A stretch of 64,000 nucleotides of DNA from Aliidiomarina sedimenti. Lineage in GTDB: Bacteria; Pseudomonadota; Gammaproteobacteria; Enterobacterales; Alteromonadaceae. Positions 10,469 to 21,460 of this stretch are shown here, piece after piece. The DNA lies in NCBI RefSeq assembly GCF_003986955.1, contig NZ_PIPN01000005.1:124001-188000 (forward strand), written 5' to 3'. Below the pieces are notes generated by a model. The model was given only the letters and a program-made list of their open reading frames with translations. It was not told the origin of the DNA and did not search any database. Made by a program: the position numbers and the translations under genes. Positions within the stretch are counted from its first letter, which is position 1, and every line of letters starts with the position of its first letter.

Positions 10469-12967
10469 TCAGCTAAGCCGGCGGATCAGCCCCGCTGCAT
10501 TCTGGGCCAGTAGCCGGGCGCAGACCGCCTTGCCTAACAAGGCAACAATGGTGGCGCCTAATACCGGCCCCAGAATCCAGAAACGCCAGTGGATACTGGG
10601 TTGCATCGCAAAGACCTGGGTTTGCAGCAGAAACACCGACAACTCCATCGCGACCGCCGCAATAAGGCCCGCCAGCGCTCCTAAAATAACAAACTCATAA
10701 GTCACAGCCCGGGACAGTAACTTGCCCGGTGCACCCAGGGTGCGCAGAATCACCAGTTCCTTTTCGCGCTCTTCCAGGGTCGCCTGTACCTGCGCCACCA
10801 GCACCAGCGCACCCGCTAAGACCACCAGCACCAGTACGAAAGTAATCGCCAGTGAGACCTGCTCAATAACTTCACGCAACTGACCAATAATGGTATCAAC
10901 ATCAATCAGCGAGACCTGGGGGAAGTTACGAAACAGTTCATAGAGTTCATCGCTTCGCTCTGGCGCCAGATAAAAACTGGCAATGTAAGTTGCCGAACTG
11001 GTCTGCAATGTGGCCGGATCAAAAATCATATAGAAATTCGGCTGCATCGTATTCCAGTCGACTTCACGAATACTACTCACCGGCACACTAAACTCATCGC
11101 CCCCCACCGAGAAGCGCAGCTCGTCGCCCACGGCCAGGTTGAGTCGTTCCGCTACTTGCGACTCAACAGAGACTGAACCTGTCTCGTCCTCGCTAAACCA
11201 GTTACCCTCAGTGAGGTTATTATTCGGTGGCAGATCAGCGCGCCAGGTTAACTGCAGCTCGCGGCCAAAGCCTTCCCGAAACTCACTGGCATCACGTTCT
11301 TCTTTGCTCACTGCGTCGCGCACCAGTTCATCGTTAATCGCCATCAGCCGACCCGGCACAATCGGGTACAAATCAGTCGCCGAGATCTGTTCCCGCTCAA
11401 ACATAGCGTTCAGTTCGGCAACCTGGTCATCGGCGACATTGACGACGAAATAATTAGGCGCATCATCGGGCAATTGATTTTGCCAGTCAGCAAGCAGCTC
11501 GTTACGCAACGCCAGAACCAACAGGAAAAGCATCAGGGCGGTGGCAAAGCTAATCATCTGCACTGAATTCTGTTTGGCACGACGCTGCATTCCTGCCATT
11601 GCTAAACGCCAACTACTGCCCGCCTGCATGCCTGCCGTGCGACTAGCGCGGATAAACAGGCGACTAATCCCGAGCAATACCAGCACCGCCATCGACCCGC
11701 CGGCAAACAAGGCTGCCGACAGCAACCAGCTGGAGGAATACACCACCATTAATATATAAATAGTGCCGCCCCCGATCAGCCACTGCAGCCAGGCACGCAG
11801 ACTCGACTGCGCAAGGTCACGTTGCAGCACTCGCAATGGCGGAACCTTAATCAGCCGCAGTAACGGATAGAGGCTGAACATAAGCGCACAGAGCAGGCCC
11901 GTTCCGATGGCCAGAACATACGGACCGCTACCAGCGGCCGGCAGGCTTTGTTCAAGATATGCAGCAACAAAGTAGATCACGCCAGCCTGCAACAGGTAAC
12001 CCAGCAGCGTACCCAGGGCGATACTAAAGACCGTCAACAGCAACAAATGGAGGGTGAAAATACGCGAAATCAGACCGCGCGATCCACCCAGTGTTTTCAT
12101 AATGGCCACCGCATCGTAATTGCGCTGACAATAGCGCTGAGCGGCGACTGCCACTGCTGTGGCGGCTAACACCACGCCCAGCAGGCTGGCCAGCAGCATG
12201 AACTGTTCAGCCCGCTGCAGTGAGCTTGCCAGCGGTGTGTCACCGTCGGTGATTCCCTGCCAGCGCTGAGTCACATCATCGAGTTGTGGCAGTAGCCAGC
12301 TTTCAAAACGTTCGATATCGGCGTTGTCGCCGGCAAATAAGTAATGGTAATTAACCCGGCTACCAGGTTGAATCAAGCCAGTCGCGGCGAGATCATCATA
12401 GCCAATCAACACATTTGGACTGTCAGTAAACACATTCAGCCCGGAATCTGGTTCGTGGGTCAGAACCTGAGTCACGGTGAATTCGCTGTTACCAATTTCA
12501 AGCGTATCACCCAAGGCTAATTCAAGTCGCTGAAAAAGCTGTGACGCCACCCAGGCTTCACCGGACTGAGGCAACTCGTCGGTCGGCGCACCTTCCGCGA
12601 ATGCCTGACTGCCGACTTCAAGCTGGCCGCGCAACGGGTATTCGCTGCTGACTGCTTTAATATCGACCAGTGCCATATCACTCGCTGCAAAGGCCATTGA
12701 ATTGAAACTGGTTCGCCGTGCCCAGCGCAAGCCTTCGTCGCTGGCTTGCTGCAACCACTCTGTGTTCACTTCGTCGCGTGAACGAAGCACCCGATCCGCG
12801 GCAAGAAATTCTGCACTTCGCTCCAGTAAACCAGCCTGCAGACGCTCGGAAAACAACGACAGCGAGAGGACGGCGCAAACCGACAGCGCGATGGCTGCAG
12901 CCATGATCGTCAGTTCACCACGTCTCAGTTCATGCTGTAGTAAACGCCAGGATATTTTATGCCACAT
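10469..12967 (-). CDS. ybbP: ABC transporter permease, FtsX/MacB type (YbbP-like)
   Basis: 832 aa, the size of E. coli YbbP (about 804). N-terminal membrane segment (AAAIALSVCAVLSLSL), then a large extracytoplasmic domain, FtsX-type membrane blocks (around residues 260-375 and 725-815) and further helices near 395-475. Its start overlaps the ATPase gene by 11 nt. Together with YbbA it forms a MacB-like ABC complex; in E. coli the pair is next to tesA, as here. Substrate unknown, probably lipid or another envelope molecule. Confidence 0.9.
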   Translation of the reverse strand: MWHKISWRLLQHELRRGELTIMAAAIALSVCAVLSLSLFSERLQAGLLERSAEFLAADRVLRSRDEVNTEWLQQASDEGLRWARRTSFNSMAFAASDMALVDIKAVSSEYPLRGQLEVGSQAFAEGAPTDELPQSGEAWVASQLFQRLELALGDTLEIGNSEFTVTQVLTHEPDSGLNVFTDSPNVLIGYDDLAATGLIQPGSRVNYHYLFAGDNADIERFESWLLPQLDDVTQRWQGITDGDTPLASSLQRAEQFMLLASLLGVVLAATAVAVAAQRYCQRNYDAVAIMKTLGGSRGLISRIFTLHLLLLTVFSIALGTLLGYLLQAGVIYFVAAYLEQSLPAAGSGPYVLAIGTGLLCALMFSLYPLLRLIKVPPLRVLQRDLAQSSLRAWLQWLIGGGTIYILMVVYSSSWLLSAALFAGGSMAVLVLLGISRLFIRASRTAGMQAGSSWRLAMAGMQRRAKQNSVQMISFATALMLFLLVLALRNELLADWQNQLPDDAPNYFVVNVADDQVAELNAMFEREQISATDLYPIVPGRLMAINDELVRDAVSKEERDASEFREGFGRELQLTWRADLPPNNNLTEGNWFSEDETGSVSVESQVAERLNLAVGDELRFSVGGDEFSVPVSSIREVDWNTMQPNFYMIFDPATLQTSSATYIASFYLAPERSDELYELFRNFPQVSLIDVDTIIGQLREVIEQVSLAITFVLVLVVLAGALVLVAQVQATLEEREKELVILRTLGAPGKLLSRAVTYEFVILGALAGLIAAVAMELSVFLLQTQVFAMQPSIHWRFWILGPVLGATIVALLGKAVCARLLAQNAAGLIRRLS

Positions 12968-13637
12968 CGACTGACTGCTCCTTCAGTTCACCTGCCTGCA
13001 TCTCCAGCACGCGATCGCATTTTTGTGCCAGCGTGGTGTCGTGAGTGACCATCACCAGCGTAGTACCCTGTGCTTTGTTCATCTCGAACAGTAATGCCTC
13101 CACCGTATGCCCGGTGGTGCTGTCGAGATTACCGGTCGGTTCATCAGCAAAGAGAATTTTAGGCTGGCCAATAAATGCCCGGGCAATAGCAACGCGCTGT
13201 TGTTCACCACCAGACAATTGATTCGGATAATGGGTTAAACGTTCACCCAGGCCGACCTTGCCAAGCAACTCCCGCGCCTGAGCTTCGGCATCTTTACGCC
13301 CGGCCAGCTCGGCGGGTAGCATGACGTTTTCCAGTGCAGTCAGGCTTGGAATCAACAGAAATGACTGAAAAATAAAACCGACTTTATCCGCGCGTATTTT
13401 TGCCCGCTGCTCCTCATCCAAATCGCCTAAATTTTCGTTATCTATAAGGACCTGACCTGTAGTAGCAATATCCAGCCCGGCCAGGAGTGACAACAAGGTG
13501 GATTTACCAGAGCCGGAAGCCCCCACAATGGCGACGCTTTCACCAGCTTTAATAGCAAGAGTAATTGCGTGTAGAATGGTGAGTGGACCTGCACTGGTCT
13601 CAACTTTTTTCGAAACAGCGGTGGTTTGAATAATCAT
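12957..13637 (-). CDS. ybbA: ABC transporter ATP-binding protein (YbbA-like)
   Basis: 226 aa single ATPase domain of the LolD/MacB class. Walker A GASGSGKST, Q-loop FIFQSFLLIPSLTALENV, signature LSGGEQQRVAIARA, Walker B ILFADEPTGNLD and switch His in VTHD are all present. Start ATG 13637-13635 directly abuts the divergent tesA ATG. Partner of the overlapping YbbP permease. Confidence 0.94.
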   Translation of the reverse strand: MIIQTTAVSKKVETSAGPLTILHAITLAIKAGESVAIVGASGSGKSTLLSLLAGLDIATTGQVLIDNENLGDLDEEQRAKIRADKVGFIFQSFLLIPSLTALENVMLPAELAGRKDAEAQARELLGKVGLGERLTHYPNQLSGGEQQRVAIARAFIGQPKILFADEPTGNLDSTTGHTVEALLFEMNKAQGTTLVMVTHDTTLAQKCDRVLEMQAGELKEQSVDVA

Positions 13638-14270
13638 ATGATGAAAAAATTCCTTTATGTCGGCTCAATGCTCGTGCTTTTGCTGGTTATACGGCCGGCA
13701 AGCGCAAATGTTTCACTTTTAATTTTTGGTGACAGCCTGAGTGCTGGCTATGGCATTTCTCAAGCCGACACCTGGGTCGCTGAAATCGAACGCCGCTGGC
13801 AACAGGACTATCCAGAGTACAGTATTATTAACGCCAGTATTAGCGGTGACACCACTCAGGGCGGGTTAAGACGCCTTGCCGAGGTGGTCGAACGCCATCA
13901 ACCAGACGCCGTTTTTATTGAACTTGGCGGCAATGACGGCTTACGTGGATTTCAAATCGACAGTATTCGCAGCAACCTGAGCGAAATGATTCACTATCTG
14001 CAAAACCGTGATATCCATGTGGCACTCAGCCAGATCGAGATCCCGCCCAATATGGGTCCACGCTACACGGATCAGTTTCGTAGCTTATTTGCTAACATTG
14101 CCGAGCAGCATAATGTCGAGCTGGTGCCCTTTTTCATGCTTGATATTGCCACTGACCCCGGGTTGATGCAAAGCGATGGCATTCACCCCAACCTGCAGGC
14201 CCAGGAGGCCATTGCTGATATCATGGAACCCCAGTTGCGGGCTATCGCTGAACAGGCAGCCAGCGAATGA
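13638..14270 (+). CDS. tesA: multifunctional acyl-CoA thioesterase I / lysophospholipase L1
   Basis: About 210 aa GDSL/SGNH hydrolase with a signal peptide (hydrophobic YVGSMLVLLLVI, cleavage after ASA). Block I FGDSLSAGYG, block II Gly in SISGDTTQGG, block III GGNDG and block V DGIHPN give the full Ser-Gly-Asn-His set. Acts in the periplasm on acyl-CoA, lysophospholipids and esters. Possible starts are ATG 13638, ATG 13641 or TTG 13626. It overlaps the next gene by ATGA. Confidence 0.93.
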   Translation: MMKKFLYVGSMLVLLLVIRPASANVSLLIFGDSLSAGYGISQADTWVAEIERRWQQDYPEYSIINASISGDTTQGGLRRLAEVVERHQPDAVFIELGGNDGLRGFQIDSIRSNLSEMIHYLQNRDIHVALSQIEIPPNMGPRYTDQFRSLFANIAEQHNVELVPFFMLDIATDPGLMQSDGIHPNLQAQEAIADIMEPQLRAIAEQAASE

Positions 14271-14836
14271 CAGCGCGCTATTGCTACTTCCTCGGACTTG
14301 GCAGTAATCTGCAACCCACCTCTAATTTGCAGACAGCGCTACACAAACTGCAAGCACAGTTTGCGCAGATAATCCTGTGGCCAATAATTGAAACCGAGCC
14401 TGTCTCGATTGAAAGCCAGCGAATATTCCTCAACACACTGGTCGTGGTAAGAAGTAACTGGACACCAGAGCAGTTAAAAAGCTGGTGCAATGAACTTGAG
14501 GAAAGCCTGGGGCGGAACCGTAAAGATCCGCTAAGCAGTATCAAAGACCGGCCGCTTGATATTGATATCCTGGCCCAGCAAAGTCAGTTAAACCTCAGCG
14601 TCCTCGAATGCTTTACTGAACCCTATGTTCGTCAGGTGATTGCCTCAGCGGAGCGAGCAACAGACCAGAGCCCGACGACTCACCCTGTTTCCTTGTGGGG
14701 ACACCAGTTAGGCCAGCGAGCGGCCACCGTCTACCCGAACCACGCTGGCGGTCATATAATGGTTGTCGAGGATAGCGTAGATCGCCTTTTCCAGTGCTTC
14801 GAAGCCCCCCTCGACCGCGAGCAGAGTCTCTGCTAA
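14267..14836 (+). CDS. HPPK-like pterin pyrophosphokinase (FolK family)
   Basis: 189 aa. GLGSNLQP at the N-terminus, FLNTLVVV, and the nucleotide/pterin signature GRNRKDP...DRPLDIDI place it in the 6-hydroxymethyl-7,8-dihydropterin pyrophosphokinase family. It looks divergent from the main FolK, and its linkage to a folM-like gene suggests a tetrahydropterin or alternative folate role. The last 43 codons are antisense to folM; the tail after about residue 146 resembles no HPPK sequence and may be read-through from loss of an earlier stop. Confidence 0.8.
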   Translation: MTARYCYFLGLGSNLQPTSNLQTALHKLQAQFAQIILWPIIETEPVSIESQRIFLNTLVVVRSNWTPEQLKSWCNELEESLGRNRKDPLSSIKDRPLDIDILAQQSQLNLSVLECFTEPYVRQVIASAERATDQSPTTHPVSLWGHQLGQRAATVYPNHAGGHIMVVEDSVDRLFQCFEAPLDREQSLC

Positions 14837-15448
14837 GACTTTAGATTGTTCACCCGCACTATGCTCGGGTAAAAACTTAACTGGTCCCGGCTGAATCGCG
14901 TTCACCCGCACCTTAGGTGCCAGCCGCTTGGCAAAACTCTTCATCAAGTTTTCTGAGCCCGCTTTCGTTGAGCAGTACAGTGCATAGTCAGCATTGGGAT
15001 TATCGACATAAATATCAGTGATATGAATCACATTGCCATGGTCCAGAATGCTCTGCGCAAGCAGCTCGCTTAAGCTGCTATTAAGGCGTGCGGGCAACTT
15101 CATGTGGATCTGATAAAGAGCGTCGTAGAAGTCTTCCAGCTGCCCTTCATGGGCACTGTCTTTTTCATAAATAGAGGCATTGTGGAGTAACAGCTCAATG
15201 TGCTTAGTGTGCTGCTGGATAGTCTCAATCGCGTGACTGACGCTGGCGTCATCAAGTGCATCAAACTCAACACCAATTAGCTTATTCGGGTCTGTGGCGG
15301 TGTCATTCGTTAGCGTAGCAAGTTCTCCGCTGAAGCTGCGTGTCAGCACTATCACTTTCCAGCCGTTGGCTAACAACGATCGGGTCATATGCAGCCCAAG
15401 TCGCTGGCTTGCACCACTGATTATTGCTACGGGGGATGTTACTGCCAT
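14708..15448 (-). CDS. folM: short-chain dehydrogenase, dihydromonapterin / pteridine reductase type
   Basis: 246 aa SDR. Cofactor motif SGASQRLGLHM (the R in place of the usual last G is typical of pteridine reductases), LLHNAS, catalytic Tyr-Lys in YCSTKAGSENL, and C-terminal VRVDGGRSLA. Known FolM enzymes reduce dihydromonapterin and dihydrofolate. It converges with the HPPK-like gene and shares 129 nt with it on opposite strands. Confidence 0.82.
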   Translation of the reverse strand: MAVTSPVAIISGASQRLGLHMTRSLLANGWKVIVLTRSFSGELATLTNDTATDPNKLIGVEFDALDDASVSHAIETIQQHTKHIELLLHNASIYEKDSAHEGQLEDFYDALYQIHMKLPARLNSSLSELLAQSILDHGNVIHITDIYVDNPNADYALYCSTKAGSENLMKSFAKRLAPKVRVNAIQPGPVKFLPEHSAGEQSKVLAETLLAVEGGFEALEKAIYAILDNHYMTASVVRVDGGRSLA

Positions 15449-15553
15449 GCCGGCGCCTCACTCAACTTGTTTGGTTTAAGGCATTGTATACGAACAACTT
15501 AACGACTTGGATGTTGAAACAAAAGAATTGTTGGCAGGTAAGATTTCAAGAAG

Positions 15554-15637
15554 TGGCGTCCCCAAGGGGATTCGAACCCCTGTTACCGCCGTGCCAAAGG
15601 TTCAGCGCGGTGTCCTCAAGACAACGCCTTCACGGCA
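15554..15637 (-). pseudogene. tRNA-Glu-derived pseudo-element 1
   Basis: The first 40 nt on the + strand (15554-15593) are identical to the T arm, 3' acceptor and CCA of the intact tRNA-Glu genes next to it. The anticodon region is replaced by a longer segment and the 5' acceptor strand is missing. On the minus strand, GCGTTGTC and GGACACCGC can form an upstream hairpin. It cannot fold as a complete tRNA. Confidence 0.7.
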
Positions 15638-15673
15638 ACGCTCAAACAGAGAAATAGGTATGAATTCAAGAAG

Positions 15674-15749
15674 TGGCGTCCCCAAGGGGATTCGAACCCC
15701 TGTTACCGCCGTGAAAGGGCGGTGTCCTAGGCCTCTAGACGATGGGGAC
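15674..15749 (-). tRNA. tRNA-Glu (TTC)
   Basis: 76 nt including encoded CCA. Acceptor GTCCCCA pairs with TGGGGAC, anticodon TTC in CCCTTTCAC, T loop TTCGAAT. Second-last member of the minus-strand tRNA array. Confidence 0.96.
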
Positions 15750-15774
15750 CCTGGACTGCTGTTGCTATTGAAAG

Positions 15775-15857
15775 TGGCGTCCCCAAGGGAATTCGTACCC
15801 CTGATATTGCCGTGCCAAAGGTTGGCGCGGTGTCCCTGGGGCACCGCCTCACGGCGG
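15775..15857 (-). pseudogene. tRNA-Glu-derived pseudo-element 2
   Basis: Same architecture as the element at 15554: 3' half of tRNA-Glu kept, the same insertion in place of the anticodon loop (GCCAAAGGTT on the + strand), 5' acceptor lost. It is more decayed, with changes in the T arm (GTACGAA on the minus strand instead of GTTCGAA). A perfect small hairpin GCCAA-CCT-TTGGC and the upstream GCGGTG/CACCGC stem can still form. Confidence 0.7.
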
Positions 15858-15894
15858 CCAATCTCACGGCATGTGCCGTTGTTCATATTGAAAG

Positions 15895-15970
15895 TGGCGT
15901 CCCCAAGGGGATTCGAACCCCTGTTACCGCCGTGAAAGGGCGGTGTCCTAGGCCTCTAGACGATGGGGAC
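15895..15970 (-). tRNA. tRNA-Glu (TTC)
   Basis: 76 nt, identical to the copies at 15674 and 16089, CCA encoded, anticodon TTC. Confidence 0.96.
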
Positions 15971-16088
15971 GCAAAATTTCAATCGCTGTTAACTAAGTCA
16001 CGTTTACCTTGTGTTGCCCTTGCGCTGTTTTACTCGCACTCACGCATACCACAAGATCTTCTTCTTAATGCCAAAGGCACTTAAAAGA

Positions 16089-16164
16089 TGGCGTCCCCAA
16101 GGGGATTCGAACCCCTGTTACCGCCGTGAAAGGGCGGTGTCCTAGGCCTCTAGACGATGGGGAC
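16089..16164 (-). tRNA. tRNA-Glu (TTC)
   Basis: 76 nt, identical to the two other intact copies, CCA encoded. It follows tRNA-Ala by 22 nt in the array and is separated from the next Glu copy by 118 nt in which I see no gene. Confidence 0.96.
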
Positions 16165-16186
16165 CCGGACTCAGTCATGACAGGTT

Positions 16187-16262
<76 letters not shown>

Positions 16263-16313
16263 ATCCTGATAAACAATCGCTTCACCGATTGCTTTACCCT
16301 GACAGCGGGGCGA

Positions 16314-16341
16314 ATTATAAGGGTCACTAAAAAACTGTCAA
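16314..16341 (-). promoter_or_regulatory. promoter of the Ala/Glu tRNA array
   Basis: On the minus strand a perfect TTGACA (16341-16336), 16-nt spacer and perfect TATAAT (16319-16314), followed by a GC-rich discriminator TCGCCCCGC. The discriminator suggests stringent (ppGpp/DksA) control, as at other stable-RNA promoters. Confidence 0.85.
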
Positions 16342-16470
16342 TACTTTTTTCGTAACTTCTTTCTATTCGGTCAATTTTTTAACAATTCGACGCAAAAACA
16401 ATCAAAAAGCGGCGTTTTGACAAGTTTTCTTTCAGCTAAGCGAGCCCGCAAGCGAATTCGTTATCGTTGC

Positions 16471-17115
16471 TTAACACTCACCATTTGGACAGTCAAAATG
16501 GTAGATCCGCTCAACCCCTTCGCGGTCCGACATAGTCACGTCAAGGTCGCGAACCAGGCCGTCTTTTACGCTGTATATCCAGCCATGAATAGTGAGCTCC
16601 TGGCCACGATTCCAGGCTTCCTGGATAGTGTGACTTTTGGCCAGGTTACGGACCTGTTCGATGACGTTCAGCTCACATAAGCGATCTAATCGCGGATCAT
16701 ACGGCAAACCTTCTAGCTCTCGCCGATTCTCACGGAAAATGTCTTTGATCGGAAACAGCCAGTTATCAACCAGGCCGTGTGCGCTGTTGTCCATCGCCGC
16801 CGCCACACCACCACAGCCATAGTGGCCAACGACAAGGATATGTTTAACTTTCAGGGCGTCTACCGCAAATTGCACCACAGACAGGCAATTAAAGTCAGTT
16901 TGTACAATCTGATTAGCCACATTCCGATGCACAAAAAGTTCACCAGGCGCCATTCCTACGATCTGATTTGCAGGCACCCGACTGTCAGAACAGCCAATCC
17001 AAAGGTACTCAGGTTTTTGCTGATTGACCAGGCGGTTGAAGAAATCAGGATCTTCTTCAATCTTACGCTTGGCCCACTCCTTATTGTTATTAATGAGTTC
17101 TTTTACTTTCGGCAT
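16471..17115 (-). CDS. can: beta-class carbonic anhydrase
   Basis: 214 aa, similar in size to E. coli Can (220). Interconverts CO2 and bicarbonate in the cytoplasm. The zinc ligands and catalytic dyad are visible in CSDSRVPANQ (Cys, Asp-Arg) and GHYGCGG (His, Cys). It begins one nucleotide after the gltX stop on the same strand, so the two are probably cotranscribed. Confidence 0.94.
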   Translation of the reverse strand: MPKVKELINNNKEWAKRKIEEDPDFFNRLVNQQKPEYLWIGCSDSRVPANQIVGMAPGELFVHRNVANQIVQTDFNCLSVVQFAVDALKVKHILVVGHYGCGGVAAAMDNSAHGLVDNWLFPIKDIFRENRRELEGLPYDPRLDRLCELNVIEQVRNLAKSHTIQEAWNRGQELTIHGWIYSVKDGLVRDLDVTMSDREGVERIYHFDCPNGEC

Positions 17116-17116
17116 T

Positions 17117-18526
17117 TTAGCTTTGCTCCTCCCGCGCTTTTATAAATTCTAACGCCAGGTTAATCCGTGCCACCACGGTTGCTTGTGGTAATGCAGCCAA
17201 TGTCGCATCCAGTGAGGGTGAATTACCACCGCCAGTGGCAGCTACACGTAATGGCATACCAACTTTACCCATACCAATATCAAGCTCACTACAGGTAGCC
17301 TGAATGGCCTGCTGAATGCCGTCCTGGTTCCATGACGTCAATTCAGCTAGTTTATCGCGAACCAGAGCTAAAGCTGCTCCGGCCACTGGACGCAAATGCT
17401 TTTTCGCGGCACCAGCTTCAAATTCAGTCACTTGCTCAAAGAAATAGCGACTAATCTCAGCCATTTCTTTCAACGTTTTAACACGTTCCGCCTGCAGGCT
17501 GACAATGTCAGTCAGCGCTGGGCCGTCACTGGTATCGACCCCTAGCTTATTAAAATGCCAGGCAAGCTCGGTAGCAACTTCGTCGGCGGGCAGTGACTTC
17601 ATATAATGCTGGTTCAGCCAGTTCAATTTTTCGGTATTAAATGCCGAGGCCGCCTTGTTGATATCCGACAATTTGAACAACTTAATCATCTCATCAACCG
17701 AAAAGACTTCCTGGTCACCATGGGACCAACCGAGCCGAACCAGATAGTTCAACAATGCCTGCGGTAAGTACCCGTTGTCACGGTATTCCATGACACTTAC
17801 CGCGCCATGGCGCTTTGACAGTTTCTTACCGTCGTCGCCGAGAATCATCGATACATGAGCATACTCAGGCACAGGCGCGCCAAGTGCTTTGAGAATGTTA
17901 ATCTGCCGCGGTGTATTGTTGATATGGTCTTCGCCGCGGACGACATGAGTGATCCCCATATCCCAGTCATCAACGACAACACAAAAGTTGTAGGTCGGCG
18001 TGCCATCAGTGCGCGCAATAATCAGGTCATCCAGTTCCTGATTGGAAAATTCGATGCGTCCACGTACATGGTCATCGAAGATCACAGACCCCTCTTGCGG
18101 GTTACGAAAACGGATAACATAGGGCTTACCCGGCTGTTCTTCCTGATCGCGACAGGCACCGTCGTAACGAGGTTTCTCACCTGCAGCCATTTGCTCTTCA
18201 CGCATTTTCTCGAGCCGCTCAATTGAGCAGTAACATTTATAGGCTTTGCCTTCGTCAAGCAAACGGTCGATCAGTTGCTGATAGCGTTCAAAACGCTGAG
18301 TCTGATAATAAGGCCCTTCGTCGTAATCCAGCCCCAGCCACTGCATACCTTCAAGAATCGCATCAATCGCCGGTTGAGTTGAACGTTCGCGGTCCGTATC
18401 TTCTATCCGTAGAATAAATTTACCGCCCGCAGCTTTCGCCACCAGCCAGGAGTAAAGAGCGGTACGAGCTCCACCAACATGCAAATAACCAGTAGGACTT
18501 GGCGCAAAACGAGAGACTATGCTCAT
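17117..18526 (-). CDS. gltX: glutamyl-tRNA synthetase
   Basis: 469 aa class I synthetase. HIGH-like motif [15 protein letters not shown] at the N-terminus, KMSKS-like KKLSKRHG near residue 240, and a Cys-rich segment CYCSIE...GACRD resembling the zinc site of E. coli GluRS. It charges the tRNA-Glu genes located 1 kb downstream; physical closeness of gltX and Glu tRNAs is also seen in other gammaproteobacteria. Followed by can. Confidence 0.97.
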
Positions 18527-18748
18527 AGAAACTTAACCTTGAGATTCACGTGAATGTATAAATGCCGATAGTCTACCACAGCGCTAATGGACGGCGGTAT
18601 AGGGTCGTGTTGTGTTTAATACAGAGCCAGCAGAATCGTTTCTTAAGACCCTCTCGTTTGTAAGTTTTACGATAGAAAAAAACTAAAATATTTACATAGA
18701 ATAAACATAAAAGTAGAATAATTAACCAACCCAAATAAGGATATTGCC

Positions 18749-19342
18749 ATGCTTAAACTCAAACTTTTACCTCTCTTGCTATTCAGCAGCCCTTTCCTGA
18801 CGGGCTGCAATTCTTCTGATGACGAGAATGTAGAGCAGGAATTGGAAGACGAATACTACCAGGAGGTTGTCGTTATCGGATCCCGGCCGGAACCATATTA
18901 TGGATTTAATACAGGTCCAGGTTACAGCGTAACCGATGAGTCAGGAGAACAATCTCTTGTGGATTTGATCCGAGACTTCACATTTGAATGGGGCTACACA
19001 GTAACAGCGCAAGTTGAGGTTGTGATTTATGCAGATCCGCCAGACGATGGGGCTTCATCAGACATTAGAGTTCTGGAGATCCTGGATAGGGAGGAAGATG
19101 AAGTCGGCACCCTTTACAATTATGATTCCGTGATACTGGACCACGCACACGTTATTCGAACGGATGATAATAACGAAGGATACTATTTGTTCTTGGGGCA
19201 TACCTTCGAATGTGCAGAGAACATAGATTGTGATCAACTGGTCGATATGAGTAATGATGGCGGTACCATTTCGCTCGAGTTCGAATACCTCGGCCAATCA
19301 GATGACCGTCCCACTGCAGTCATGCTGACCGACTGGAACTAA
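18749..19342 (+). CDS. lipoprotein with DUF4377-like domain
   Basis: 197 aa. Signal peptide with lipobox LTGC (Cys near residue 20), so an exported lipoprotein. After an acidic linker, the core around residues 70-115 (FEWGYTVTAQVEV, then YADPPDDGASSDIRVLEIL) resembles DUF4377, a domain found in lipoproteins often with META domains; I assign this from memory of the pattern, not a search. ATG 18749 follows AAGGATATTGCC. It is more AT-rich in its 5' flank than its neighbours and stands alone. Function unknown. Confidence 0.75.
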   Translation: MLKLKLLPLLLFSSPFLTGCNSSDDENVEQELEDEYYQEVVVIGSRPEPYYGFNTGPGYSVTDESGEQSLVDLIRDFTFEWGYTVTAQVEVVIYADPPDDGASSDIRVLEILDREEDEVGTLYNYDSVILDHAHVIRTDDNNEGYYLFLGHTFECAENIDCDQLVDMSNDGGTISLEFEYLGQSDDRPTAVMLTDWN

Positions 19343-19366
19343 GCCACCTCTCCGGCTGCCGGTTAC

Positions 19367-19582
19367 TTACTTAATAGAAAGCGTAACCGGCTTGTCCAGG
19401 CTCTGGCTGCCAAAACGGGCCCAGGCTTTCTCATGAAAGAAGTAAGCGACCGTATTGACCGCAGGCTCAATCATCGCGATCAGTCCGCCAAGTACAAAGC
19501 TGCCTGTCAGCAACCAGGTTACGGTAAACGCAACACAGAAGTGGACCACCGCAAAGGTTAGTGTTTTATTCATGAAATGCAT
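19367..19582 (-). CDS. DUF2061 small membrane protein
   Basis: 71 aa with two hydrophobic segments (LTFAVVHFCVAFTVTWLLTG and VLGGLIAMIEPAVNTVAYFF) and the FHEKAWARFG ending typical of DUF2061 proteins. ATG 19582 has GAGGAG 8 nt upstream. A Fur-box-like sequence lies about 50 nt upstream. An inverted repeat (GCCGGTTAC 19358-19366, GTAACCGGC 19383-19391) brackets its stop. Confidence 0.85.
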   Translation of the reverse strand: MHFMNKTLTFAVVHFCVAFTVTWLLTGSFVLGGLIAMIEPAVNTVAYFFHEKAWARFGSQSLDKPVTLSIK

Positions 19583-19628
19583 ACCGACAACTCCTCAATA
19601 CCTGATTACCTTAATGGACTATTTTTAA

Positions 19629-19643
19629 TGATAATAGTTCTCA
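19629..19643 (-). promoter_or_regulatory. Fur-box-like site
   Basis: TGATAATAGTTCTCA matches the 15-nt Fur core TGATAATNATTATCA at 12 of 14 defined positions. It is about 50 nt upstream of the DUF2061 start, in an AT-rich stretch where a promoter would be expected. No iron-uptake gene is adjacent, so the regulation is tentative. Confidence 0.5.
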
Positions 19644-19789
19644 TTAATAATGGAAATCAATAATATCGATTGTGATAAAGGATTTTTCACCCTTCAGCGG
19701 TCAACTCGCCAATGCGCATAGGCTTTGCCACAGCCATTAAGCGCCGTGAGATTGGTATAGAACAGAAAGAGAATAATACAGACAGAAAT

Positions 19790-19865
19790 TGGTGGGTGGT
19801 ACTGGGCTCGAACCAGTGACCCTCGCCTTGTAAGGGCGATGCTCTCCCAGCTGAGCTAACCACCC
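19790..19865 (-). tRNA. tRNA-Val (TAC)
   Basis: 76 nt with CCA. Acceptor GGGTGGT, anticodon TAC in CCCTTACAAG, T loop TTCGAGC. Last of three identical copies. Confidence 0.96.
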
Positions 19866-19927
19866 ATCGTGGTCGACCTTGAGGTCATGGCAGCGCCTGT
19901 GAGGCGTGCCTGGGATATGTGAAATGC

Positions 19928-20003
19928 TGGTGGGTGGTACTGGGCTCGAACCAGTGACCCTCGCCTTGTAAGGGCGATGCTCTCCCAGCTGAGCTAACCA
20001 CCC
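19928..20003 (-). tRNA. tRNA-Val (TAC)
   Basis: 76 nt, identical to the flanking copies; spacers between copies are 62 and 46 nt. Confidence 0.96.
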
Positions 20004-20049
20004 ATCTTGGTGTATCTCAGCATTTCTTTTCTAAACTGCAGCCACAAAA

Positions 20050-20125
20050 TGGTGGGTGGTACTGGGCTCGAACCAGTGACCCTCGCCTTGTAAGGGCGAT
20101 GCTCTCCCAGCTGAGCTAACCACCC
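20050..20125 (-). tRNA. tRNA-Val (TAC)
   Basis: 76 nt, promoter-proximal copy of the three identical tRNA-Val genes. Confidence 0.96.
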
Positions 20126-20150
20126 ATATTTCGCTGGACTGCGGGGCGCT

Positions 20151-20178
20151 ATTATAGAGATCGGCGAAAAGCTGTCAA
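20151..20178 (-). promoter_or_regulatory. promoter of the tRNA-Val array
   Basis: Minus strand TTGACA (20178-20173), 16-nt spacer, TATAAT (20156-20151), then AGCGCCCCGC. Same layout and GC-rich discriminator as the Ala/Glu array promoter. Confidence 0.85.
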
Positions 20179-20215
20179 CAACAAATTGCGCCTTGAGCAC
20201 TTGTTTGCTGGTAAT

Positions 20216-21460
20216 TTAGTCAGCCTGGCTGATGGCGGCGTTATTCTCATACCCTGCCACATGGAGGTCGATAAGACGCCCGGTAAATGGCGTCAGTTCC
20301 ACCACCGCATAATTGCCATTTTGCACATCTTCCAGCTGCACCAGCCGACTCCCCACTGCGGGTAGGCTAGCTCCCGAGCGCAAAGCCAGTATTGTAGCCA
20401 CTATAGCGGCATCGGTACGCTGGCTAGCGCCAGCCTCATCCATCAGCTGGGCAAACACCTCTGTCTCAAGGTACAGATGCAAATCCACCAGGCTGGTTGA
20501 ACGCGCGTAGGGAATACGGGGTTGAGACTCTGACACACTTGCTGCAAACGCCAGCAAGGAAAGTAAGTTATTGATCCTGAATGGTTCATAAAAATGGATG
20601 TTCTGCAGCGTGTTCGCAGTGTCGGTCGAGCTGGCTTGTTGCAGCAGCGCGATATCCTCCTGCAGTGCCTTCGTCATCACGATGGGGCTATCCAGCGGCA
20701 TATTGAGCAAAGGACCTATTCCCGGCCGTTGGTCAAGCAACATTAAATCAAACGGATTGCCGCCAAAGCTATCCAGGTTGACCAGCTCCAGCAATAAAGC
20801 CTGGGTGGCATACTCGTCGCCCAGGCCATATAAGGACGTCAGCCAGGAAAGTACCTGAGGAGGATCGTCGCCCTCGACAAGTATACCCTCTCCTTCCGTC
20901 AAAGGGCTAAGTTGACGCAACACCTCAGTAAGGCGCGGATTAGCCTGCAAAAAAGTAGCCTCGATCGCTGCAAGCTCATCAAGTTCGGGGAAAAGCCCGG
21001 CGTTAAAATCCGCTAAGCGGAAAAAAAAAGCCTCCTGAATTTGCATTGATACCCAATCCTGGGCATGGCGCACATCGGCGAGCACCTGAAAACGGTGGGA
21101 CAGGAACTGAGCCATTTCCTGTTGCAGTGCTGCAGTGGGACGTTCGTCACTATTCATCACTGCTATGAATCGCTTAAACTCAACGGTGTCCCGTAACGGA
21201 ACTACCGCTGCTTCACCGCGCTCTTCGGCGATTATGCTTTGAATAAACCCTACGTAGTCAGGAATGTTGGCAAAGCCCAACAGCTCAGCGTAGCGGTATA
21301 AAGTCTGGCAGGGCTCAACCGTATTTGCGCTATCAAAACAATCGTGAGGAAGGCTCAAATTCTCCTTCTCATTACTTTCAGATGCCAACGCCGTGCCGCC
21401 AATTCCGCTGCCGATACACAGAGAAAAGATTAGCGCCAAGGCCCCTACCGCTTTGTTCAT
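20216..21460 (-). CDS. exported protein of unknown function, coupled to uvrB
   Basis: 414 aa with a signal peptide (LALIFSLCIGSGIGGTALA, cleavage after ALA), so probably periplasmic. The rest is predominantly acidic and helical, without transmembrane segments; two Cys (CFDSANTVEPC, about residues 41 and 51) could form a disulfide. I recognise no family. Its ATG overlaps the uvrB stop (TAATG), which suggests translational coupling even though uvrB acts in cytoplasmic DNA repair. Downstream lies the tRNA-Val promoter, 38 nt away. Confidence 0.85.
   Translation of the reverse strand: MNKAVGALALIFSLCIGSGIGGTALASESNEKENLSLPHDCFDSANTVEPCQTLYRYAELLGFANIPDYVGFIQSIIAEERGEAAVVPLRDTVEFKRFIAVMNSDERPTAALQQEMAQFLSHRFQVLADVRHAQDWVSMQIQEAFFFRLADFNAGLFPELDELAAIEATFLQANPRLTEVLRQLSPLTEGEGILVEGDDPPQVLSWLTSLYGLGDEYATQALLLELVNLDSFGGNPFDLMLLDQRPGIGPLLNMPLDSPIVMTKALQEDIALLQQASSTDTANTLQNIHFYEPFRINNLLSLLAFAASVSESQPRIPYARSTSLVDLHLYLETEVFAQLMDEAGASQRTDAAIVATILALRSGASLPAVGSRLVQLEDVQNGNYAVVELTPFTGRLIDLHVAGYENNAAISQAD

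Follow-up and report, generated by a model that had tools for sequence, protein, structure and literature searches.

What are the tRNA-like pieces that alternate with intact tRNA-Glu genes in the marine bacterium Aliidiomarina sedimenti: remains of dead genes, scars of a mobile element, or units of some other kind? We approached this question in a stretch of 64,000 nucleotides (contig NZ_PIPN01000005.1, positions 124,001 to 188,000; hereafter the window), whose numbering is used throughout. The pieces belong to a minus-strand operon with the order tRNA-Ala, Glu, Glu, element e2, Glu, element e1. Both ARAGORN and Rfam at its gathering cut-off called one tRNA-Ala(GGC), the operon's first gene (16187..16262), and three intact tRNA-Glu(UUC) genes. 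The first of these (16089..16164) has no element behind it; the second (15895..15970) is followed by a trailer (15860..15894) and e2 (15775..15859), and the third (15674..15749) precedes a trailer (15641..15673) and e1 (15554..15640). Upstream of tRNA-Ala lies a promoter-like site, TTGACA-16-TATAAT (16314..16341, minus strand), which agrees with the sigma-70 consensus at 12 of 12 positions, while the terminator scan returned no terminator-like site on the minus strand in 15400-16450. Taking this perfect consensus promoter, the clear minus strand and the tRNA gene downstream together, we infer that e2 is very likely transcribed with the operon.

Each element consists of a 5' segment of about 45 bases, which we call segment N, joined to the tRNA-Glu 3' half, which extends from the anticodon loop to CCA. 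Segment N comprises an inverted anticodon arm and an altered direct one. The first-pass annotation had described two elements that keep the tRNA-Glu 3' half with CCA and lack the 5' acceptor, and this description holds: e1 retains the stretch between CACGGCGG and CCA unchanged (40 of 40 bases), e2 differs by five of those 40 bases as counted by eye, and the acceptor strand GTCCCCA is absent from both. The sites were also right, save that we place the upper borders a few bases further out, at 15640 and 15859. A repeat finder recovered five copies in register, e1 and e2 being the two matches at 63-65%; between themselves, their N cores are 79% identical. Neither ARAGORN nor Rfam at the gathering cut-off called a tRNA at e1 or e2, and the single match of the Rfam tRNA model within the elements (e1, 16.9 bits) falls under the cut-off of 29, so that the element is not a cloverleaf; with the 5' acceptor strand missing, the elements have no acceptor stem of a functional tRNA. 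Elsewhere in the window, Rfam reported a histidine operon leader (RF00514; 52153-52268, plus strand, 52.6 bits).

The plainest explanation would be that two tRNA-Glu genes decayed independently, each losing its 5' half and retaining the 3' half. Such an outcome hardly agrees with the finding of the same segment N in other genera, with the inverted arm inside it or with the repeated trailers described below. The element turns up again at the tRNA-Glu operons of six genera (Aliidiomarina, Idiomarina, Alishewanella, Arsukibacterium, Rheinheimera and Alkalimonas); given this spread, simple decay can be set aside as having virtually no probability, and the element's presence in other species likewise excludes chance. 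The first-pass annotation had preferred a duplicated unit to two decays and had named a lack of counterparts in relatives, together with the absence of an RNA product, as the sign of decay. Counterparts beside Glu tRNAs were found in the tRNA-Glu operons of relatives, and the common segment N, the repeated trailers and the tandem copies in relatives all support the duplicated unit.

As for the extent of this distribution, BLAST with e2 matched 8 of the 17 genomes of the genus, A. sedimenti included, with one cluster per genome that in each case was the Ala-Glu-Glu-Glu operon; the remaining 9 of the 17 gave no match. The covariance-model scan suggested in the first-pass annotation yielded clear elements (at least 57 bits) in 16 of 295 sampled family genomes, from four genera, among the matches listed, which reach down to about 47 bits; the overall family tally of 278 consists mostly of intact tRNA-Glu. 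Applied to two of the other genera, a second model showed elements in 9 of 31 genomes of the one and in 1 of 19 of the other; its overall tallies there, 30 and 13, again come mainly from intact tRNA-Glu. A pattern scan of the named genome collection returned 44 stretches, 23 of which were set aside because they lacked both a tRNA tail and a called tRNA-Glu in range. The 21 with a tRNA tail all come from the six genera named above and represent fewer genomes, two genomes contributing two records each. A called tRNA-Glu lies in range in 15 of them; the other six sit at the end of a record or locus or beside a run of the letter N. The pattern requires ACACCGCG and GCAC, and elements resembling e2 are therefore missed. 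When models R2 and R3 were run on 394 genomes of the order, and R3 on 369 of the class, they returned A. sedimenti alone at their thresholds; known carriers were possibly not among these samples, and the pattern scan is the better evidence of a narrow range.

The recurrence of the element beside several tRNA-Glu copies and in several species might also suggest a small MITE-like mobile element that targets tRNA-Glu. Against this, all five matches in the A. sedimenti genome fall inside this one operon, the genus shows one cluster per genome, and the six of 21 records from other genera that lack a called tRNA-Glu sit at ends or beside such runs, with no clear copy elsewhere. We give this explanation only a slim chance. 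Among 46 tRNA flanks examined (37 on other stretches and 9 in the window, the Glu operon included; 50 tRNA genes in the genome pass the cut-off), a neighbouring exact copy of at least 11 bases was present for tRNA-Glu alone; this test is blind to a gapped inverted arm and missed it for Glu and Tyr as well. In the window's tRNA-Val spacer (19866-19927, minus strand), hairpin-like stretches can be seen by eye, and there is no exact tRNA copy of at least 11 bases.

The trailers provide the next piece of evidence. The trailer behind e1 and that behind e2 each start like the trailer behind the preceding intact tRNA: the initial bases CTTTCAATA of the second tRNA-Glu's trailer are repeated behind e2, and CTTCTTGAA from that of the third behind e1. 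We compared the first 10 trailer bases at 18 loci, with items found by pattern, each Rheinheimera genome entered once and the near-identical A. soli left out (loci L065, L006 and L162 omitted). An item and the next pseudo-copy agree at 7.18 of 10 bases (n = 28), against 4.19 of 10 for pairs of intact tRNA-Glu within one operon (n = 63; p = 1e-5), although the species are related and the pairs not independent; for pairs of an intact tRNA and a pseudo-copy alone (n = 19), p = 2e-4. At least 8 of 10 bases are shared in 16 of the 28 pseudo-copies and fewer than 8 in the other 12. Tandem units occur in A. maris, A. indica, Arsukibacterium and Alkalimonas, and a lone first-hairpin motif without the following ACACCGC was seen near tRNA-Glu at three loci, always at the end of the array. 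Tandem units and arrays closing in a lone first hairpin fit slippage between long direct repeats.

Repeated trailers also bear on the idea that the elements are remnants of integrase attachment sites, left when a mobile element that had used the tRNA-Glu 3' half as attB was later deleted. The stretch from the anticodon region to CCA is a usual extent of attB, and the piece kept in the elements spans just this stretch. However, foreign sequence would then be expected behind the first 3' half, not the trailer that follows the second, and segment N would not be expected to hold an inverted tRNA arm. The region 11000-21000 holds 12 ORFs that reach 120 aa, none of them recognized by eye as an integrase, and we consider the chance of this origin to be very slim.

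Some loci of relatives show peculiarities of their own. In one genome (locus L012 of G011), the spacers between tRNA-Glu genes are made of a palindromic ggggtcagatt...aatctgacccc repeat that is unrelated to the element. In another (L008 of G006), tandem long repeats with ggtagggcaggctcggcctgccgtgg motifs lie downstream of the operon, behind a truncated element. Finally, a tRNA-Glu copy of L064 (639-714, reverse complement) carries an altered base in the anticodon stem (GGCGCT), which possibly reflects a decaying gene or a sequencing error.

How segment N arose is best seen from its beginning, which reads as the reverse complement of the anticodon arm of tRNA-Glu, minus a few bases. Judged against 2000 dinucleotide shuffles, the inverted match to tRNA-Glu is significant for e2 (p = 0.003) and e1 (p = 0.001), while direct comparison gave p = 0.76 and 0.37. 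The reverse-complement alignment appeared in 8 of 8 tested elements (p from 0.001 to 0.016, against 0.06 to 0.91 for direct comparison); these elements are kin to one another, so the eight tests are not independent. We then scored a fold-back model on 18 elements at all turning points. The best sum, 960, fell at tRNA position 21, the centre of the palindrome CCTAGG, followed by 953 at position 22, with a median over positions of 704.75. Individual elements peaked at position 21 in 8 of 18 cases (some tied), at 22 in six, at 23 in three and at 20 in one. Because of this scatter over positions 20-23, and because position 21 is one of five six-base palindrome centres among 71 positions, the palindrome argument taken alone is modest. 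The sequence GTCCTAGGACACC is intact in the A. celeris element and one middle base off in those of A. indica and A. halalkaliphila and in the truncated copy of G006. Taken as a whole, the elements present a reverse-complement copy beside its source and then a resumed direct copy, which is the signature of a template switch.

Behind the inverted arm, the direct anticodon loop carries an insertion (GCGC...GCACGG). The GC after CACCGC and the G before CACGG are present in all 28 aligned elements, bearing in mind that the search patterns for later elements already required the first inserted G and that elements with another anticodon arm stood outside the alignment; copies with such other arms, in G012, G249 and G1022, lack the common G before CACGG. 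The alignment was assembled from 35 regex matches minus eight, plus one element of G006. The eight matches comprised four overlapping reads of elements already included, two reads of one other-arm element of G012, an element of A. indica that has an extra hairpin, and that of A. celeris; the regex also passed over an A. halalkaliphila element bearing this hairpin. This GCGCTGGCTACACCAGCGCGGGC-like extra hairpin, about 21 bases long, is placed inside the first hairpin (L010, 1469-1720; L009, 1718-1823; L146, 165-223 plus 5' flank).

These observations induce us to propose the following scenario. In an Alteromonadales ancestor, replication of a tRNA-Glu gene and its trailer would have switched template: the anticodon arm would have been copied backwards off the other strand, with the turn at the palindrome CCTAGG, after which copying would have resumed forwards through the tRNA 3' half and the trailer a second time. 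A single switch could in this way produce the order tRNA, trailer, inverted anticodon arm, direct 3' half, trailer. The anticodon-loop insertion, common to most elements, would have come next. The resulting direct repeats of at least 40 bases might then have allowed slippage or exchange between the tRNA and its pseudo-copy, refreshing the 3' half and the trailer and generating tandem arrays. One four-point switch followed by slippage would account for the inverted arm, the repeated trailer and the tandem units alike. A template-switch origin, as read from its product, seems likely to us, and we consider it fairly probable that such a switch and later slippage gave rise to an element that is now a transcribed spacer, with segment N probably selected. 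This also suggests that a copying accident is able to turn tRNA genes into hairpin RNAs.

Is segment N really maintained? Four-fold sites of three genes are only 25-41% identical to those of the window: the SDR gene was compared in three species, can in six and gltX in five, drawn from A. maris, A. indica, A. halalkaliphila, A. celeris, an Idiomarina MAG and I. aquatica; on the Arsukibacterium and Alishewanella loci none of the three was found. For the N cores of A. maris, A. indica, A. halalkaliphila and I. aquatica, identity to e1 or e2 is 77-94%; it spans 75-94% when all eight compared elements are taken. A. soli, the closest named relative seen, stays near the window, with 82-91% at four-fold sites. 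By eye, the trailers between tRNA and segment N cannot be aligned among distant species. Segment N has evidently outlived its surroundings, either through selection or through rewriting by the invariant tRNA. Over the 28 aligned elements, its invariant columns mostly match the tRNA, forwards or backwards, and conversion from the tRNA could therefore mimic selection; the loop bases vary freely. The tRNA 3' half of the elements is often degenerate, so that, if selection acts, segment N must be its target. We lean slightly towards selection on segment N.

It is important to weigh here a fully neutral account, in which the element is a dynamic repeat without function, an accident that slippage and conversion keep refreshing, or creating anew, from the invariant tRNA-Glu. 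The tRNA-matching invariant columns and the freely varying loops are what one would expect from it, as are the patchy presence of the element, its tandem expansion, its occurrence past apparent terminators (seen by eye), the weak covariation and the unremarkable single folding of e1. On the other hand, the non-tRNA features—GC after CACCGC and G before CACGG—are invariant in the 28 aligned elements, even if the first base was required by the pattern and other-arm elements were excluded. The loop TAAAC(A)CTTT, moreover, is common to Aliidiomarina and Arsukibacterium, two genera whose operon trailers cannot be aligned by eye; synonymous sites approach saturation already within Aliidiomarina. Overall, we find the neutral account quite conceivable, though we would not favor it over a switch-born element under selection.

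The proposal that segment N can form two hairpins was borne out in part. The consensus fold consists of two local hairpins, the first with a loop that reads GTGA in most elements and GCGA or GAGA in variants; with one extra base in 13 of 28 elements, it is no simple GNRA tetraloop in all of them. A covariation score as high as that of the two-hairpin fold was reached by 1 of 500 shuffles and its percentage of paired cells by 2 of 500, the sequences being related. The compensatory changes looked for came down to one base pair with changes on both sides, a count that 443 of 500 shuffles also reached. Folded singly, e1 does not surpass its shuffles, of which 43 of 200 fold as well (z -0.84), and e2 does so moderately (9 of 200, z -1.97); for the intact tRNA the figure is 3 of 200. 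We also tried a long stem pairing the inverted arm of segment N with the direct arm; it had 91.6% of cells paired, with covariation not beyond that of shuffles, and the two local hairpins were preferred.

A fold of this kind makes it tempting to suppose that the operon releases a stable small RNA or sponge from the pre-tRNA, in the manner of 3'ETS-leuZ or RttR, which would perhaps pair through its inverted arm with the tRNA-Glu anticodon arm. The position inside the operon, the two consensus hairpins with a mostly GTGA first loop, the CCA end and the complementarity of the inverted arm to tRNA-Glu are all compatible with such a product, but the 3' halves are often degenerate and covariation is weak. 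The last elements of A. indica and A. celeris, which carry the extra hairpin, stand behind a T-tailed hairpin that by eye resembles a terminator, and an element beyond an apparent terminator would argue against a needed RNA there. The terminator scan of these loci reported no site in L010 and one in L146, on the opposite strand; in G264, it flagged a site on the operon strand downstream of the element. We regard a stable small RNA as unlikely. The weaker claim would be that the element is a structured two-hairpin spacer transcribed with the tRNAs.

It remains to set the element beside known systems. The first-pass annotation had been reminded of the tyrT repeats of E. coli, and this likeness was borne out and extended, both systems containing an inverted tRNA piece in addition to the tRNA 3' end. 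The tyrT repeats, the source of RttR, lie directly 3' of the tRNA in its operon. Behind the trailer they carry an inverted piece of tRNA-Tyr (GGGGAAGGATGAG..; p = 0.003 for one repeat and 0.002 for the other), where GGGGAAGGATGAGAAGCTTCGA or a close variant is the reverse complement of the T arm and acceptor strand, and they end in a direct tRNA 3' end with CCA. The tyrV unit has an identical trailer behind its pseudo 3' end and is tandem, whereas in the tyrT-tyrV spacer the trailer is not obviously repeated. The Glu elements possess each feature that marks the tyrT type: the 3' end of the neighbouring tRNA, an inverted piece near the start, a repeated trailer and, in relatives, tandem units. 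The two differ in that the plan is common and the sequence is not, tRNA-Tyr standing in place of tRNA-Glu; the exact 3' end measures 19 bases against 40 in e1; the tyrT repeats have a long middle, for which direct comparison with tRNA-Tyr gives weak significance as well (p = 0.046 and 0.016); and they come with the tpr ORF and an annotated RNA, RttR. The turning point of the E. coli fold-back could not be fixed; a turn at CTTCGAAG was not the best-scoring centre in the model. An all-Rfam scan at gathering cut-offs gave no match to the RtT family in the window.

To our knowledge, the tyrT repeats have stood as an old curiosity without a stated origin. What is newly described here is the account of origin, the tyrT-type kind of element being already known; a search of the open literature by titles and the starts of abstracts, a domain outside which most subscription papers fall, returned no paper on the Glu element itself. 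One might go further and see fold-back switching at palindromes as a general route to hairpin RNAs in tRNA operons, with the Glu element and RttR as independent births and the former kept by pairing of its arm with tRNA-Glu or its precursor, a generalization that we hold to be rather doubtful at present. Other known systems resemble the element less. 3'ETS-leuZ is a sponge from the spacer of a tRNA operon, a plain external spacer without tRNA copies; the RNA of our element would share the origin in a tRNA-operon spacer and differ in holding tRNA copies. Remnants of tRNA attachment sites have a duplicated tRNA 3' half, whereas the element has a trailer behind both copies and an inverted arm besides. 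Copies of tRNA 3' halves within operons, we would caution, are not always decay or integration scars.

Published work touches on these comparisons. A recent paper counts rttR among REP-bearing small RNAs (PMC12306157), which is another view of its palindromic part. According to a preprint (PMC11623569), the strand opposite tRNA-Tyr near tpr gives a putative small RNA, and this may be relevant to the tyrT case of E. coli. As to mechanism, template switching is reported to make an RNA stem by reverse-complement copying in one event, in microRNA and rRNA genes (Monttinen and Loytynoja 2022, PMC8794818). Compared with those cases, ours concerns bacterial tRNA genes and adds tandem duplication of the tRNA 3' half and trailer. 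With about 30 elements now to hand as a comparative set and a second tyrT-like case, on another tRNA and of like plan, the origin of such repeats becomes a testable mutation mechanism.
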